NCBI GenBank assembly: GCA_013388525.1
Contig: JACAFA010000141.1
Location: 1 to 30,619, forward strand
DNA: 30,619 nt
Direction: 5' to 3'
Source: Ignavibacteriaceae bacterium
GTDB taxonomy: Bacteria > Bacteroidota > Ignavibacteria > Ignavibacteriales > Ignavibacteriaceae
Part shown: piece after piece, positions 4,288 to 19,828 of the stretch
Layout of the letters: every line of letters starts with the position of its first letter
Numbering within the stretch: position 1 is the first letter of the stretch
The notes under the pieces: generated by a model
What the model saw: only the letters and a program-made list of their open reading frames with translations
The model's database searches: none
Told to the model about the DNA's origin: nothing
Translations under genes and position numbers: made by a program

Positions 4288-5664
4288 ATGGACGCTGAAA
4301 TACTTGCCCGTTTGCAATTCGCATTTACAATTGCCTTTCATTACGTATATCCTCCCTTAAGTATTGGTCTTGGCGTTATAATGGTTATTATGGAAGGAAT
4401 GTACCTTAAGACAAAAAATCCTCTTTATGAAAAGATGACAAAGTTCTGGGTGAAGGTTTTCGCACTTACCTTTGCAATTGGTGTAGCAACAGGGATTGTT
4501 ATGGAATTCGAATTTGGAACTAACTGGGCAACTTACTCAAGGTATGTTGGTGATGTCTTCGGAAGTGCGTTGGCTGCAGAAGGTATTTTTGCATTTTTCC
4601 TTGAGTCCGGTTTCCTTGCAATACTCGTATTCGGCTGGGACAAAGTTAAACCACCAATGCATTTTTTTTCAACGATTATGGTTTCACTCGGTTCAATGTT
4701 TAGCGCAGTCTGGATTGTAGTTGCAAATTCCTGGATGCAAACTCCAGCAGGATATCATATTGTTGGTGAAGGAATGAATGCTCGTGCCGAAATTACAGAT
4801 TTCTGGGCGCTGGTTTTTAATCCTTCTTCAGTTGATAGATTGTTACACGTACTTTCAGGGGCATGGCTTGCCGGAGCTTTCCTTGTTATAAGTGTCAGTG
4901 CATATTACCTGTTAAAGAAACGACATCTGGAATTTTCAAAATCATCAATTAAGATTGCTCTGGTGCTTGCATGCTTTGCATCTATCTTTCAGCTTTTTAC
5001 CGGGCACAGCAGTGCTGTTGGGGTTAGTAAAAATCAACCGGCAAAACTTGCTGCGATGGAAGCTGTTTATGATACACAAGAAAATGCACCTTTGTATTTA
5101 TTTGGCTGGGTGAACGATGATAAACAGGAAGTTAATTTTGGAATAGCTGTACCGGGAATGCTCAGTTATCTGATTGGGTTTAATCCTAAAACTCAGGTAA
5201 TAGGATTGAACGATTTTCCGGAAGATCAAAAACCACCAGTAAATATTGTTTTTCAATCTTATCATATTATGGTTGCTATAGGTTTTGCTTTGATTGGAAT
5301 AAGTCTGGTTGGAGTATTTTTCTGGTGGAGAGGAAGTTTATTTGAAAAGAAATGGATGTTATGGGTTTTCGTTTTCTCGGTTCTCGGTCCACAGATTGCC
5401 AACCAGCTTGGATGGATTACTGCCGAAGTTGGTAGACAGCCATGGATAGTTTACGGAATTCTCAGAACATCTGAAGGTCTTTCAAAAGCTGTTGAAAGCG
5501 GACAAATTTTGTTTTCGTTAATTCTGTTTACCATAATTTATCTTTTTCTGTTTGTTCTTTTTATCTATTTACTGAATGAAAAAATAAAACACGGACCTGA
5601 AGATGTGGATAAATTATCATCCGAGTACGAACATCAAAAATCATTATTTAAAAGCACCAAATAA
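4288..5664 (+). CDS. cydA: Cytochrome bd oxidase subunit I
   Basis: A 458-residue membrane subunit carrying all three hemes of the quinol:O2 oxidoreductase, which reduces oxygen to water in the cytoplasmic membrane at high affinity. Heme ligands match those of E. coli CydA: H18 in '[13 protein letters not shown]', H187 in 'DRLLHVLSG' and M328 in 'YHIMVAIGF'. The signature GRQPW is at 382-386. The quinol loop begins at '[20 protein letters not shown]' and is of the short type, which explains the length below the roughly 520 residues of E. coli. About nine membrane helices are apparent. The last codons and stop (acc aaa taa) lie inside the left arm of the inserted element at 5657-6125, so the native C-terminus has probably been altered. 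There is no clear Shine-Dalgarno sequence. Confidence 0.97.
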
Positions 5665-6125
5665 CAAAAAACAAATGACAAATAATTTCGAATGATCAAT
5701 AATCAAAATTCAAAACCCAAATATGATTTTGAGGAAAGAGCTTTTCAATTTGCGAAAGATGTCAGATTATTTGTTAAAACCTTGCCAAAGACAATTGCTA
5801 ATTTTGAAGATATTAAACAACTTGTAAGAGCATCCGGTTCGGTTGGTGCGAATTATATTGAAGCGAATGAATCACTTGGCAAAAAAGATTTTTTAATGAG
5901 AATCAAAATCTGCAGGAAGGAAGCTAAAGAAGGTGTTTATTTCCTTGGGTTAATAAATGAGACAAATGAATTAGAAAATAAAACTGAAGCTGAAAGATTA
6001 ATCCAGGAAGGAATTGAATTAAAGAAAATATTTTCATCAATTATAGAAAAATCTAAATGATACTTAGTTTGAAATTTAGAATTTCGATATTATTATTTAT
6101 TTGTGATTTGAAAATTGTTATTTGG
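5657..6125. mobile_element. IVS-like element with inverted terminal repeats, inserted between cydA and cydB
   Basis: The arms 5657-5685 and 6097-6125 are inverted copies (left arm begins CCAAATAACAA and ends CAAATGACAAATAA) agreeing at 24 of 29 positions. Weaker complementarity continues inward (ATTTCGA against ATATCGA, AATTCAAAAC against ATTTCAAACT). The element encloses one gene, the four-helix-bundle protein, and nothing else. This is the layout of the intervening sequences known from 23S rRNA genes, but the host here is the cydAB operon. It covers the cydA stop codon on the left and ends 18 bases before the cydB start on the right. No transposase is present. Boundaries are inferred from the repeats. 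Confidence 0.6.
5692..6060 (+). CDS. Four-helix-bundle protein of the S23/23S rRNA intervening-sequence family
   Basis: A 122-residue helical protein with the family's hallmark central stretch: 'DIKQLVRASGSVGANYIEAN' followed by 'KKDFLMRIKICRKEAKE'. The family (often annotated 'four helix bundle protein' or S23) is best known as the product of ORFs inside intervening sequences of bacterial 23S rRNA. It forms a small helical bundle and its biochemical role is not settled. Here the gene sits inside an inverted-repeat element between cydA and cydB. It does not belong to the oxidase. It starts 27 bases after the cydA stop, has no Shine-Dalgarno sequence, and would be co-transcribed with both oxidase genes. 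The neighbouring DNA is unusually rich in CAAAT/AATAAC-type words. Confidence 0.9.
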   Translation: MINNQNSKPKYDFEERAFQFAKDVRLFVKTLPKTIANFEDIKQLVRASGSVGANYIEANESLGKKDFLMRIKICRKEAKEGVYFLGLINETNELENKTEAERLIQEGIELKKIFSSIIEKSK

Positions 6126-17310: not shown

Positions 17311-17450
17311 TAGTTATTAGTTGGTTGTTTATTGGTTTTAGTTATTTGGTTTTCGGGAGAGTAAATTTTATGCAATACAGATAACTAATCAGCTATAAGC
17401 AGTAACTAATAAACCAGAACTAACAACCCAAAACCAATAACCAATAACTG
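17311..17450. repeat. Low-complexity inverted repeat region of TTATTGG/CCAATAA-type words
   Basis: In the 228-base gap between the response-regulator and aldehyde dehydrogenase genes, a left block (17311-17353) of words such as TAGTTATTAG and TTATTGGTTTT is mirrored on the opposite strand by a right block (about 17397-17450) of AACTAATAAACC and CCAATAACCAATAACTG. Pairing is imperfect. The composition is like the flanks of the four-helix-bundle element at 5657-6125. No gene lies inside. Confidence 0.5.
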
Positions 17451-17457
17451 AAAATTG

Positions 17458-18210
17458 CTATAAAGTATTACGAAGTTTAGCCAGCCCAGTTTTACTCACA
17501 GGAAGCTGTTTGCTGTTTTTGAGAATAATTTGGTAGGATTCTTTTCCGGTTTGCTCGAGGTGCTGGATGAAGTCAACATTGATGATATATGAGCGATGTA
17601 TCCTGATGAAGTTATTTTCGTTGAGGTGGTTCTCAAAGTATTTCATAGTTTTTTGTTTCAGGAATCTTCCCTGGTCACAGTTTATCATTACATAATCGTC
17701 CTGTGCTTCAATCCATTTTATTGTTTCAACCGGAATGATTGAAATCTTTGAGCCTTCTTTAATTACAACTCTTTCAAGATACTCTATCTTTTCATCTTTA
17801 TAATCAATGATGTTTTTTATAACCGCATCGTGCTCAAATTTATCCTGAAGAAAATTAAAAGATTTTTTCAACGCATCATTGAATCTTTCTTCAGAAAATG
17901 GTTTCAATAAATAATCTGCAGCGTTAACTTCAAAAGCTTTTATTGCATAATGATCGAATGCAGTTGTGAAAATTATAACGGGTGGTTCTTCGAGCAGTTC
18001 CAGCATTTCAAAACCGCTTATCTTCGGCATCTGGATATCGAGGAAAATAATATCAGGTTTCAGTTCGTTAATCTTTTTTATTGCATCAAATCCGTTTGAA
18101 CATTCTGCAACAATCTCAACTTCAGGATGATTTTTGAGGTAACCCTTGGTTATTTCCCGGGCTAACTTTTCATCATCGATTATGATTGTTGTTATTTTGC
18201 TTTTCTTCAT
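17458..18210 (-). CDS. LytTR-family response regulator
   Basis: A 250-residue two-component regulator. The receiver domain (about residues 5-125) has acidic D12/D13, phosphoacceptor D58 in 'PDIIFLDIQMPKISG', T/K positions in 'IIFTTAF' and 'YLLKPF'. It is followed by a LytTR DNA-binding domain (about 145-250; 'IEAQDDYVMINC', 'FIRIHRSYIINVDFI'). Such regulators bind direct-repeat promoters and pair with LytS-type kinases. The partner kinase is encoded upstream at 18752-19828, now separated by the GxxExxY cassette. It is the last gene of the operon, so its expression depends on readthrough across about 540 bases of inserted DNA unless it has its own promoter (inference). Confidence 0.93.
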   Translation of the reverse strand: MKKSKITTIIIDDEKLAREITKGYLKNHPEVEIVAECSNGFDAIKKINELKPDIIFLDIQMPKISGFEMLELLEEPPVIIFTTAFDHYAIKAFEVNAADYLLKPFSEERFNDALKKSFNFLQDKFEHDAVIKNIIDYKDEKIEYLERVVIKEGSKISIIPVETIKWIEAQDDYVMINCDQGRFLKQKTMKYFENHLNENNFIRIHRSYIINVDFIQHLEQTGKESYQIILKNSKQLPVSKTGLAKLRNTL

Positions 18211-18226
18211 TTTTTTTAATTAAATA

Positions 18227-18275
18227 TTTAGTGAAAATTCGTGAAATTAGTGGCAAATCTTCTTTAGCCACGAAT
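18227..18275. repeat. 49-bp direct repeat, left copy
   Basis: Identical to 18681-18729. It contains GTGGC and GCCAC 12 bases apart, and ATTCGTG mirrored by CACGAAT, so two competing hairpins are possible in its RNA. It lies between the response-regulator start and the GxxExxY stop. Confidence 0.9.
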
Positions 18276-18293
18276 TACTCTAATTAACACGAA

Positions 18294-18668
18294 TCAAAGA
18301 ACTAATCTTTTATATTTCAATGAATCTTCACCAAAGTTAACGATAATACCAAGTTTATTTTTTGATGCACTTAAGTAGTTTAACGTTTGTTTGATGAATT
18401 CATCTATTATTCCGTTTACTGCTTTTACTTCTAATATGATTTTATCGAAAACAACAAAGTCAGCATTGTAAGAATGTTTTAGAATTATTTCTTTATAAGG
18501 AATTTTGTATTCTTTTTCGCGCTCATAAGGAATATTATTTTTCTTGAATTCATATTCAATTGCGTCTTTGTAAACAATTTCTAAAAATCCTCTGCCTAGT
18601 ATTTTGTGCACTTCCATGCAGATACCGATAATCTTATAAAACTCCTCTTTGTAAATCAGTTCAGTCAT
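18294..18668 (-). CDS. GxxExxY protein (PD-(D/E)XK nuclease-like, PDDEXK_3)
   Basis: A 124-residue protein with the name-giving motif 'GRGFLEIVY' (G, E and Y spaced as GxxExxY) and 'EVHKILG' before it. Further on, 'YNADFVVFDKIILEVKAV' has D then ExK, the core of a PD-(D/E)XK nuclease site, in line with the PDDEXK_3 assignment of this family. The biological role of the family is not established. I start it at the ATG 18666-18668, giving 'MTELIYKEEFYKIIG'. A longer form would begin with a GTG inside the direct repeat and translate repeat DNA. The gene sits between the kinase and regulator genes of a LytS/LytTR pair, flanked by 49-bp direct repeats. It is probably mobile cargo rather than part of the signalling system. 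Confidence 0.9.
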   Translation of the reverse strand: MTELIYKEEFYKIIGICMEVHKILGRGFLEIVYKDAIEYEFKKNNIPYEREKEYKIPYKEIILKHSYNADFVVFDKIILEVKAVNGIIDEFIKQTLNYLSASKNKLGIIVNFGEDSLKYKRLVL

Positions 18669-18680
18669 TATGTATTTAAT

Positions 18681-18729
18681 TTTAGTGAAAATTCGTGAAA
18701 TTAGTGGCAAATCTTCTTTAGCCACGAAT
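18681..18729. repeat. 49-bp direct repeat, right copy
   Basis: Identical to 18227-18275. It lies between the GxxExxY start and the kinase stop codon. A 22-base insert containing the palindrome TCCGCCAAAGGCGGA separates it from the CTAATTAACACGAAT word that ends the kinase gene. Confidence 0.9.
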
Positions 18730-18751
18730 CCGCCAAAGGCGGACAGGTTTA

Positions 18752-19828
18752 CTAATTAACACGAATATCTTCCTCAATTGGGATAAATAACGTCACTCTA
18801 AAAATACCTTTTTCTTTTTTCACTTCCATAAGATCATTACGGTGATAAATTAAATTAAGTCTGTCCGCAATATTTTTTAATCCAACACCTGCACCTTTTC
18901 GCGATTTTGAGGTTTCATCAAAATTATTTTCAAGTTGGATTTTTAAAAAACCATCATTGTAACTGCATCGCAAAGTTAAATGTACTTTATCGAGAGTTTC
19001 ATACACTGCATGCTTAATAACATTTTCAAATAAAGGCTGCAAGATCATATTTGGAATTTCTGCTTTGTTACATTCATCATTTAGTTCTTCAGAATAATCA
19101 AACTTATCTTCAAAGCGTATCTTTTCAATATCGAGATAAAGACGAATATTTTTCAACTCTTCGCTCAGCTTGTTTTTTTCTCTTTCGTTTGTAGCAAGAA
19201 TGTAACGCAGAAAATCTGCAAGCTTAATTATCATTTCCTTTGCTTTCTTCGGATCGATTTCTGTCAAAGCGCTCATCGAGTTCAGACTATTAAAAATAAA
19301 ATGAGGATTTATCTGAAACTTAAGTGAACGTAGTTCCGCCTGTGTAACAAGGTTTTTCAATTCTGATTCTTTAAGTGATCTTTCCTGAAGCTCTGCATAG
19401 TATGAAACCAGGTAATAAAATGAAACCACAATTGCATAAAGCAGAAATCCAACAAGAAATCGCCAGAGAATAGTTTTATAGTAATAGTTTTCGTAAGTCT
19501 CGCCAAATCCAAGAATCGTAACCATCACGATATAAATAAATAAAACCCACAAGCCTGATGAGATTATCGCGCTAATCGCATGACTAAAGAATACTTTTAA
19601 GAGATGATATTGCTCAATTGAAATATACTTTGCAGGATAATGCCAGATGATTGTAAGACCGCATAATAAAATTGAAGAGACCACGCTTTCCACAACCGAC
19701 GAATTCAGATCCAGCCCCAATCCAAAAAATAAAATAAGAAAACTTATTACAGCGAAAGAAAAAGAATAAAGCAGAAGAATAATAACGTTTCTGAAATTCC
19801 GAAGAATTGGATTGTCTTGCATTGCCAA
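18752..19828 (-). CDS. LytS/YehU-type sensor histidine kinase
   Basis: A 358-residue membrane kinase. Four hydrophobic segments lie in residues 12-145, then a short helix and a His_kinase domain with phosphoacceptor H176 in 'FQINPHFIFNSLNSM'. The ATPase domain has N269 in 'LQPLFENVIKHA' and the glycine box 'KGAGVGLKNIADRL'. There is no periplasmic sensor domain of note, so the membrane region or the preceding LiaF-like protein may sense the signal (inference). The start has a second methionine two codons on; either may be used. The C-terminal residues 'IRVN' and the TAG stop are encoded by the repeat word shared with the GxxExxY cassette, so the original end of the protein has probably been replaced. 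It would phosphorylate the LytTR regulator at 17458-18210. Confidence 0.93.
   Translation of the reverse strand: MAMQDNPILRNFRNVIILLLYSFSFAVISFLILFFGLGLDLNSSVVESVVSSILLCGLTIIWHYPAKYISIEQYHLLKVFFSHAISAIISSGLWVLFIYIVMVTILGFGETYENYYYKTILWRFLVGFLLYAIVVSFYYLVSYYAELQERSLKESELKNLVTQAELRSLKFQINPHFIFNSLNSMSALTEIDPKKAKEMIIKLADFLRYILATNEREKNKLSEELKNIRLYLDIEKIRFEDKFDYSEELNDECNKAEIPNMILQPLFENVIKHAVYETLDKVHLTLRCSYNDGFLKIQLENNFDETSKSRKGAGVGLKNIADRLNLIYHRNDLMEVKKEKGIFRVTLFIPIEEDIRVN

Follow-up and report, generated by a model that had tools for sequence, protein, structure and literature searches.

A GxxExxY gene between palindromic modules at a kinase/regulator junction of an Ignavibacteriaceae bacterium: a candidate minimal mobile element with a predicted PD-(D/E)XK nuclease

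The pairing of repetitive extragenic palindromic (REP) sequences with RAYT enzymes is characterized, in passages of two reports, by palindromes that co-vary with the enzyme and by gene-less inverted doublets dispersed in the genome (PMC3116915; PMC3733652), and the RAYTs are described in one of these passages as single-copy and apparently not self-mobile (PMC3733652). A small open reading frame (ORF) in inverted terminal repeats is described for the 23S rRNA intervening sequences and called a selfish element in an excerpt (PMC4990558). Excerpts of two other papers link Rpn nucleases to RecA-independent horizontal transfer (PMC5350276) and concern a derivative of the insertion sequence IS982 as a miniature inverted-repeat transposable element (MITE) of Bacteroidota (PMC9769881). 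GxxExxY genes (PF13366) are common (132 of the 164 genomes of one order), and the name appears as an incidental label in extracts of two papers (PMC8934634; PMC12085832) and the accession once in an extract of a third (PMC9756366). In the open-access literature we found neither a function assigned to these genes nor a description of repeats around them, though subscription papers and preprints lie mostly outside this scope and an earlier description is possible. Here, we report a 540-bp cassette in a stretch of 30,619 nucleotides from an Ignavibacteriaceae bacterium (contig JACAFA010000141.1; the whole stretch is called the window), in which a GxxExxY gene with palindromic modules on both sides lies between a LytS-type kinase gene and a LytTR regulator gene. 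The cassette is probably a minimal mobile element that resembles the REP/RAYT systems but carries an unrelated, solitary PD-(D/E)XK nuclease.

A preliminary description, made from the letters of this DNA, had reported two identical 49-base copies, each with a shared 15-base word alongside, around one small gene between the kinase and the regulator, and repeat comparison, ORFs and Pfam confirmed all of this. The two 49-mers are 100% identical (18227-18275 and 18681-18729), as are the two 15-mers (18280-18294 and 18752-18766). A 49-bp direct repeat is far above chance for a 3-kb stretch, in which the runner-up is 26 nt at 73%. The kinase, the GxxExxY gene and the regulator are all encoded on the minus strand. 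The features are as follows.

18297..18668, minus strand: GxxExxY gene, 124 aa, stop codon at 18294-18296; predicted PD-(D/E)XK nuclease (family profiles, invariant residues, structure model)
18681..18766, minus strand: upstream module, palindrome of right end, loop and left end, 86 nt (repeat comparison, folding)
18227..18294, minus strand: downstream module, palindrome of right end, loop and left end, 68 nt (repeat comparison, folding)
18681..18729, no strand: 49-bp repeat, kinase-side copy (repeat comparison)
18227..18275, no strand: 49-bp repeat, regulator-side copy (repeat comparison)
18730..18751, no strand: 22-nt stretch of the upstream module, the downstream counterpart being 4 nt; contains a small palindrome at 18730-18743
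18752..19828, minus strand: LytS-type histidine kinase ORF (PF06580), upstream neighbour (ORF, Pfam)
17458..18210, minus strand: LytTR response regulator ORF (PF00072 and PF04397), downstream neighbour (ORF, Pfam)

The 49-mer covers only part of the true signature, whose unit is a palindromic module of 68 or 86 nt. In the sense of the gene, a module reads ATTCGTG..AATTAG..ATTCGTGGC, a short loop and GCCACTAATTTCACGAATTTTCACTAAA, namely right end, loop and left end. Because each module is itself palindromic, the order right end-left end-gene-right end-left end looks like a direct repeat. The direct repeats are thus real, but the general signature among relatives, as judged from sequence comparison, is an inverted repeat and not a direct one. 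The whole modules as DNA fold strongly (z -4.2 and -4.9, with none of 200 shuffles as good), and the 49-mer by itself folds weakly (z -1.9, with 10 of 200 shuffles as good). The GTGGC/GCCAC and ATTCGTG/CACGAAT stems, which had been taken as two competing folds, are nested in one hairpin within the whole modules. The window words are CACTAAT and CACGAAT in the upstream module and CACGAAT twice in the downstream one, and the outermost upstream word (18752-18766) provides the C-terminal codons of the kinase (IRVN and stop). The upstream module differs from the downstream one by 18 extra nt around the small palindrome, CCGCCAAAGGCGGA at 18730-18743; a similar centre, CCGCC-TTT-GGCGG, is present in a repeat of the related genome G005 (L155). 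No other ORF of at least 80 aa was found inside the element.

The window protein matched PF13366 (PDDEXK_3; E 1.9e-33, 115.8 bits against a cut-off of 22) and TIGR04256 (GxxExxY; E 1e-38, 132.3 bits against a cut-off of 35). An alignment of 34 sequences (the window protein and 33 of 80 proteins of relatives, hand-picked for spread) shows no variation at residues E30, D70, E80 and K82, and the D...ExK active site is thus kept, in agreement with the nuclease-like core noted before. A structure model with a mean predicted local distance difference test score (pLDDT) of 94.5 showed a PD-(D/E)XK fold, with SSO0001 as the nearest solved fold and Cas4 close to it. The protein is therefore a predicted PD-(D/E)XK nuclease, which is under purifying selection and contains only one cysteine in its 124 residues. 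No Pfam family other than PF13366 matched it at E <= 0.001, so that Rpn/Transposase_31 is not among its matches. The sole gene of the element matched no known transposase family, Pfam and NCBIfam giving only PDDEXK_3 and GxxExxY, and none of the PADLOC anti-phage defence profiles matched at E <= 1.

To describe the flanks of such genes, we took 80 relatives by protein from a genome collection and 58 by family from further genomes. The resulting 135 loci comprise the 80 and 55 of the 58 without the window (L139, L170 and L176 were dropped as the gene was not located), and include three loci that repeat a place already counted (L005/L186, L006/L188 and L007/L181). The word was defined as the 7-mer C[AG]CN[AG]A[TG] after the flanks had been read, and the weight therefore rests on control ORFs and shuffles. 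Words before the gene are, for example, GCCACAGATTCACAGATT, GCCACGAATTACACTAATT and ACCGCAAATTCGCAAATT, or series of CACAGAG and CACGGAG, and the reverse complement of like words follows the gene. Words stood on both sides in inverted sense in 118 of the 135 loci, and an identical 7-mer was common to both sides in 106, against an average of 24.1 and a maximum of 38 for shuffled partners (1000 trials). After removal of duplicates the counts were 116 and 104 of 132. Among control ORFs from the same loci, 12 of 469 had a word on both sides and none of the 469 a shared one. Moreover, when the upstream flank was aligned locally with the inverted form of the downstream one, the score lay above the 99th percentile of the control ORFs (n = 471) in 42 of 80 loci and above the 95th in 63 (79 of the 80 fetched loci and the window, L012 being dropped for a short flank), while 67 of 800 mismatched flank partners exceeded the 99th. 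GxxExxY genes thus appear to be usually bracketed by inverted arrays of a 7-mer word.

The word follows the protein. When four word classes (CAC or CGC, ending in T or G) were placed on a tree of 127 of the 135 proteins (left out were six that had no word label and two, L002 and L050, whose reading frame contains a stop), 16 changes sufficed against a mean of 50.1 for shuffled labels, and none of 200 shuffles was as low, though near-copies ease such clustering. Even within one genome (G061) the elements differ in their word, namely CACGGAG (L112), CGCAAAG (L171) and CACAGAT (L182). In 26 of the 135 loci, mostly of Flavobacteriaceae, the gene lies between a Sua5-like gene and cca, both named from reading of translated ends and not by family search. 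At this site both flanks show CCGCAAATTCGCAAATT or a near variant of it in a nine-protein clade and CCGCAGATTCGCAGATT in L077, and L066 has a CACTAATT form; both arms therefore change in step. CAC-type remnants lie outside the CGC-type arms in L057, L060 and L077, and some elements at this site look as if they were overlaid by a newer one. At the sua5/cca junction of Flavobacterium, long hairpins or gene-less word arrays also occur instead of the GxxExxY unit (L260, L262, L268, L269, L275 and L277), and the junction looks like an insertion hotspot; this survey serves for examples only, as for several of 30 loci the start of cca was placed wrongly or could not be located. Contigs labelled as metagenome-assembled genomes of Klebsiella pneumoniae and Bifidobacterium breve (L070 and L076) hold Flavobacterium-type GxxExxY loci, likely reflecting binning errors.

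Similar units occur at unrelated places. Among the 135 loci, 260 pairs of gene-spanning DNA were at least 76% identical, of which 96 share surroundings and 144 do not, two sites counting as different if 500 nt or more of flank stayed unaligned on each side. After removal of five pairs sharing neighbour families and of duplicate loci, 137 different-site pairs from 46 loci remained, in which similarity extends past the aligned gene by a median of 34 nt (maximum 90) before it and 18 nt (maximum 60) after it, and typically stops within the arms. This is seen in L021/L037 (90.1% over 446 nt), in L033/L045 (89.5% over 487 nt) and in two places of Flavobacterium terrigena with different neighbours (L043/L046, 88.3% over 445 nt). 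Since similarity at different sites is confined to gene and arms, the gene together with its arms forms the unit of homology. Across 91 distinct site types, the gene is co-oriented with the downstream neighbour in 77 of 84 cases and with the upstream one in 72 of 88, against a baseline of 201 of 284 for adjacent ORFs (p 4e-5 for the downstream side). This co-orientation can be explained by selection against operon damage as well as by dependence on host transcription. Some GxxExxY units and gene-less palindromes are enclosed by a further inverted repeat, GTAACTACTCAG..CTGAGTAGTTAC or one like it (L021, L033, L045 and L082), and look nested in small elements of a different kind.

To get insights into the history of the window site, junction states were read by eye in 30 listed regulator loci of the order of genome G001, where the response regulator was matched in 121 of 164 genomes (this order includes the genomes of L002 and L008, labelled Ignavibacteriales and Ignavibacteriaceae). 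Twenty junctions have no insert, three have the gene (G049, G001 and G002, the last with an in-frame stop), two a decayed gene (L234 and L235), three gene-less repeats (L224, L226 and L242) and two no kinase beside the regulator (L240 and L247). Among the loci listed, the closest insert-free relatives have regulators 99% (G050 and G053), 98% (G052), 91% (G051) and 90% (G048) identical, and in G050, G053 and G052 the kinase end overlaps the regulator start. The junction of G049, with a regulator 97% identical, is occupied. Its element, orthologous to that of the window, has an ATTCGTAATAATTAG word upstream but neither the ATTCGTGGC word nor the loop; that of G001 has only a left end on the upstream side. 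From these two states, the second full 49-mer of the window is either a local copy or conversion of an end module in the lineage of the window, or an older state partly deleted elsewhere.

Gene-less copies of the modules are widespread. The 68-nt module of the window has matches, many of them partial, in 42 of the 164 genomes at 71-100% identity. It therefore occurs elsewhere, also without the gene, and the arrangement at the junction is not fixed in relatives. We searched for the motif GCCACNNATTN{0,3}CACNNATT with the reversed pattern as control. The motif was present in 15 of 15 gene-bearing genomes (control, none) and in 52 of the 164 genomes of the order (control, three matches in two genomes), with 48 of 132 genomes containing PF13366 against 4 of 32 without it (p 0.010; 12 unlisted genomes of this census were assigned by exclusion). 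Many matches pair up in inverted sense, some 27-190 nt apart. G005 contains 143 matches, the highest number per genome and a count that includes gene-side arms, yet only five genes. In that genome, 19 of 20 sampled stretches hold stacked-word palindromes in the expected order (the exception is L158), and palindromes at different places are up to 98.3% alike. The dispersed repeats of G005 (L141-L160) are in many cases centred on AAAACAACC..GGTTGTTTT. L081 retains the apparent start of a degraded gene.

At the level of sequence, the comparison shows arms that are matched within an element and track the protein, dispersed gene-less palindromes, and a unit that some relatives have and others lack at one junction and that recurs at unrelated sites. 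The preliminary description had raised the possibility of a cassette that moves or is copied by its own product or by host recombination. That the cassette was gained, lost or moved is supported by its absence from the junction in close relatives and by like cassettes at unrelated places; that the nuclease itself moves its element is what we infer. The bounds of such an element would be inverted arrays of an element-specific short word (CACGAAT/CACTAAT in the window), and the window form would be a composite of right end, loop and left end on either side of the gene. The nuclease may recognize its own words and nick or cut the hairpin or cruciform of the arms, either in single-stranded DNA at replication forks or upon cruciform extrusion. 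Host repair or replication would then place a copy of the unit in another intergenic region or on a palindrome that already exists, so that the working mode would be like that of a RAYT and its REPs but based on an unrelated enzyme. Units would be retained upstream of genes with the same orientation because damage to operons is selected against or because host transcription is needed.

Several observations do not fit easily with movement by the nuclease. Words are missing on one or both sides in 17 of the 135 loci, so that the bracketing is usual and not constant. The one motif searched is missing in 84 of the 132 genomes with PF13366, though other word classes exist, and G143, in which no gene was found, has five matches. 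The closest copies in G005 share a repeated gene-less unit that continues for about 60-75 nt past the palindrome, and therefore another mobilizer may act there, as it may at L021, L033, L045 and L082 with their different outer inverted repeat. The 26 loci at one Flavobacteriaceae-type site look like long residence. Moreover, no target-site duplication could be defined from occupied and empty kinase/regulator junctions, the relatives being too diverged.

Gene and arms may instead be mobile passengers that are moved by another enzyme, be it a transposase acting in trans or host enzymes that recombine palindromes, with the nuclease serving another job such as defence or hairpin repair. The overrunning units of G005, the outer inverted repeat around some copies and the single resident site in 26 loci favour this possibility, and a host function would also agree with the purifying selection seen on the protein. 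However, the class of word goes with the position of the nuclease in the tree, paralogues within a genome have different classes, genomes that lack the gene contain the motif less often (4 of 32 against 48 of 132), and no PADLOC family was detected at E <= 1; we thus consider it rather unlikely. Another explanation takes the words as regulatory sites, bound by the protein to control its own operon, with ordinary horizontal transfer accounting for the spread; in its favour, the words flank the gene immediately and track the protein. On the other hand, inverted downstream arms, many gene-less copies and homology limited to gene and arms at unrelated sites are unexpected for an autoregulated gene, leaving this explanation very little probability.

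The arms may also act as RNA, pairing in the mRNA around the gene into a stem cut by RNase III as in the 23S rRNA intervening sequences, with the DNA repeats merely recording the stem. Orientation with the downstream gene (77 of 84 against 201 of 284), the like arms of four-helix-bundle genes known from intervening sequences, and the cutting of the inverted ends by RNase III reported in an excerpt (PMC4990558) are in line with this. A selected stem should favour G-U-compatible changes, but 120 arm pairs showed no excess of such mismatches (138 against 161 reverse transitions, p 0.20; 696 transversions), which counts against a selected mRNA stem. In addition, each window module folds as a closed local hairpin and gene-less palindromes are dispersed, so that an RNA element seems improbable. 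Finally, a chance local duplication unrelated to the gene is scarcely credible as the origin of the 49-bp repeat. The upstream sides of G049, without the ATTCGTGGC word and loop, and of G001, with a left end only, allow that one full 49-mer is a local copy, but the copied sequence is the end module of GxxExxY elements, found around other such genes and alone. As the full explanation, local duplication is refuted by word sharing in relatives, the control ORFs and the module matches in 42 of 164 genomes.

The window contains a second gene of similar layout, between genes named cydA-like and cydB-like from reading of ORF translations.

5692-6060, plus strand: four-helix-bundle/23S-IVP gene (PF05635), between the cydA-like and cydB-like genes (Pfam)
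5657-5685 and 6097-6125, no strand: inverted arms of this gene, CCAAATAACA..ACAAATAA (flank comparison)

Among four-helix-bundle loci, 21 of 25 from 12 genomes passed an arm score of 26 (25 of the 30 loci L189-L218, five short ones being dropped), and 31 of 600 mismatched pairs did. They mostly have words of their own, such as agttacaagttacaagtt and ggttaaggttaagg. The shared layout is notable because the two families match different Pfam models. A gene-less array of inverted 'accaataac'-type words right after the LytTR gene (17329-17447) resembles the arms of four-helix-bundle genes. We tentatively suggest, with less than even confidence, that Bacteroidota and Ignavibacteriota contain an unrecognized class of minimal mobile elements with two branches, one headed by GxxExxY genes and the other by four-helix-bundle (PF05635/TIGR02436) genes. 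In such elements a single small protein would lie between inverted arrays of a freely drifting word of 7-11 nt that it alone reads, gene-less palindromes would be non-autonomous derivatives, and a private recognition code would arise by protein-word co-evolution without need for a transposase of known type.

Matched arms that track the protein offer a first testable role and substrate for GxxExxY genes. If the nuclease moves or copies its arms, this would be a REP/RAYT-type system on an unrelated fold, and the elements would provide a natural series of protein-word pairs for studies of the drift of DNA recognition. The like layout at four-helix-bundle genes would bear on the long-standing problem of the spread of 23S intervening sequences.

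Cas4 has a four-cysteine iron-sulphur site. Among the Cas4, RecB-like and lambda-exonuclease-type nucleases, the predicted fold is near Cas4, but a protein of 124 aa with a single cysteine has no such site. Rpn (YhgA-like) nucleases also have a PD-(D/E)XK fold and are a nuclease family like the predicted one here, but the window protein lacks a match to Rpn/Transposase_31 at E <= 0.001, and we know of no word arrays around rpn genes. With the 23S intervening sequences the element shares a small ORF within inverted terminal repeats, and the four-helix-bundle parallel points that way; nevertheless it is not one of them, as its gene belongs to PF13366 and not PF05635 and lies in a protein-coding operon and not in rRNA, with no sign of RNA-level pairing and with no Rfam family reaching its gathering score anywhere in the window. 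Like insertion sequences and MITEs, it has one gene between terminal inverted repeats and gene-less derivatives, but the single gene belongs to no known transposase family and the element is unusually small at 540 bp. The likeness to REP/RAYT lies in short palindromic repeats beside a nuclease-type gene, in gene-less doublets, which were shown in relatives, and in a repeat type that co-varies with the enzyme. The differences are a PD-(D/E)XK fold (only Pfam match PDDEXK_3) instead of an HUH-tyrosine (Y1) transposase, module ends in the window that are arrays of a repeated 7-mer word without GTAG, and like units of GxxExxY gene plus ends at many sites. The element is thus not a member of REP/RAYT, having neither an HUH-tyrosine transposase nor a GTAG tag, and the comparison suggests a small, little-studied kind of mobile DNA.
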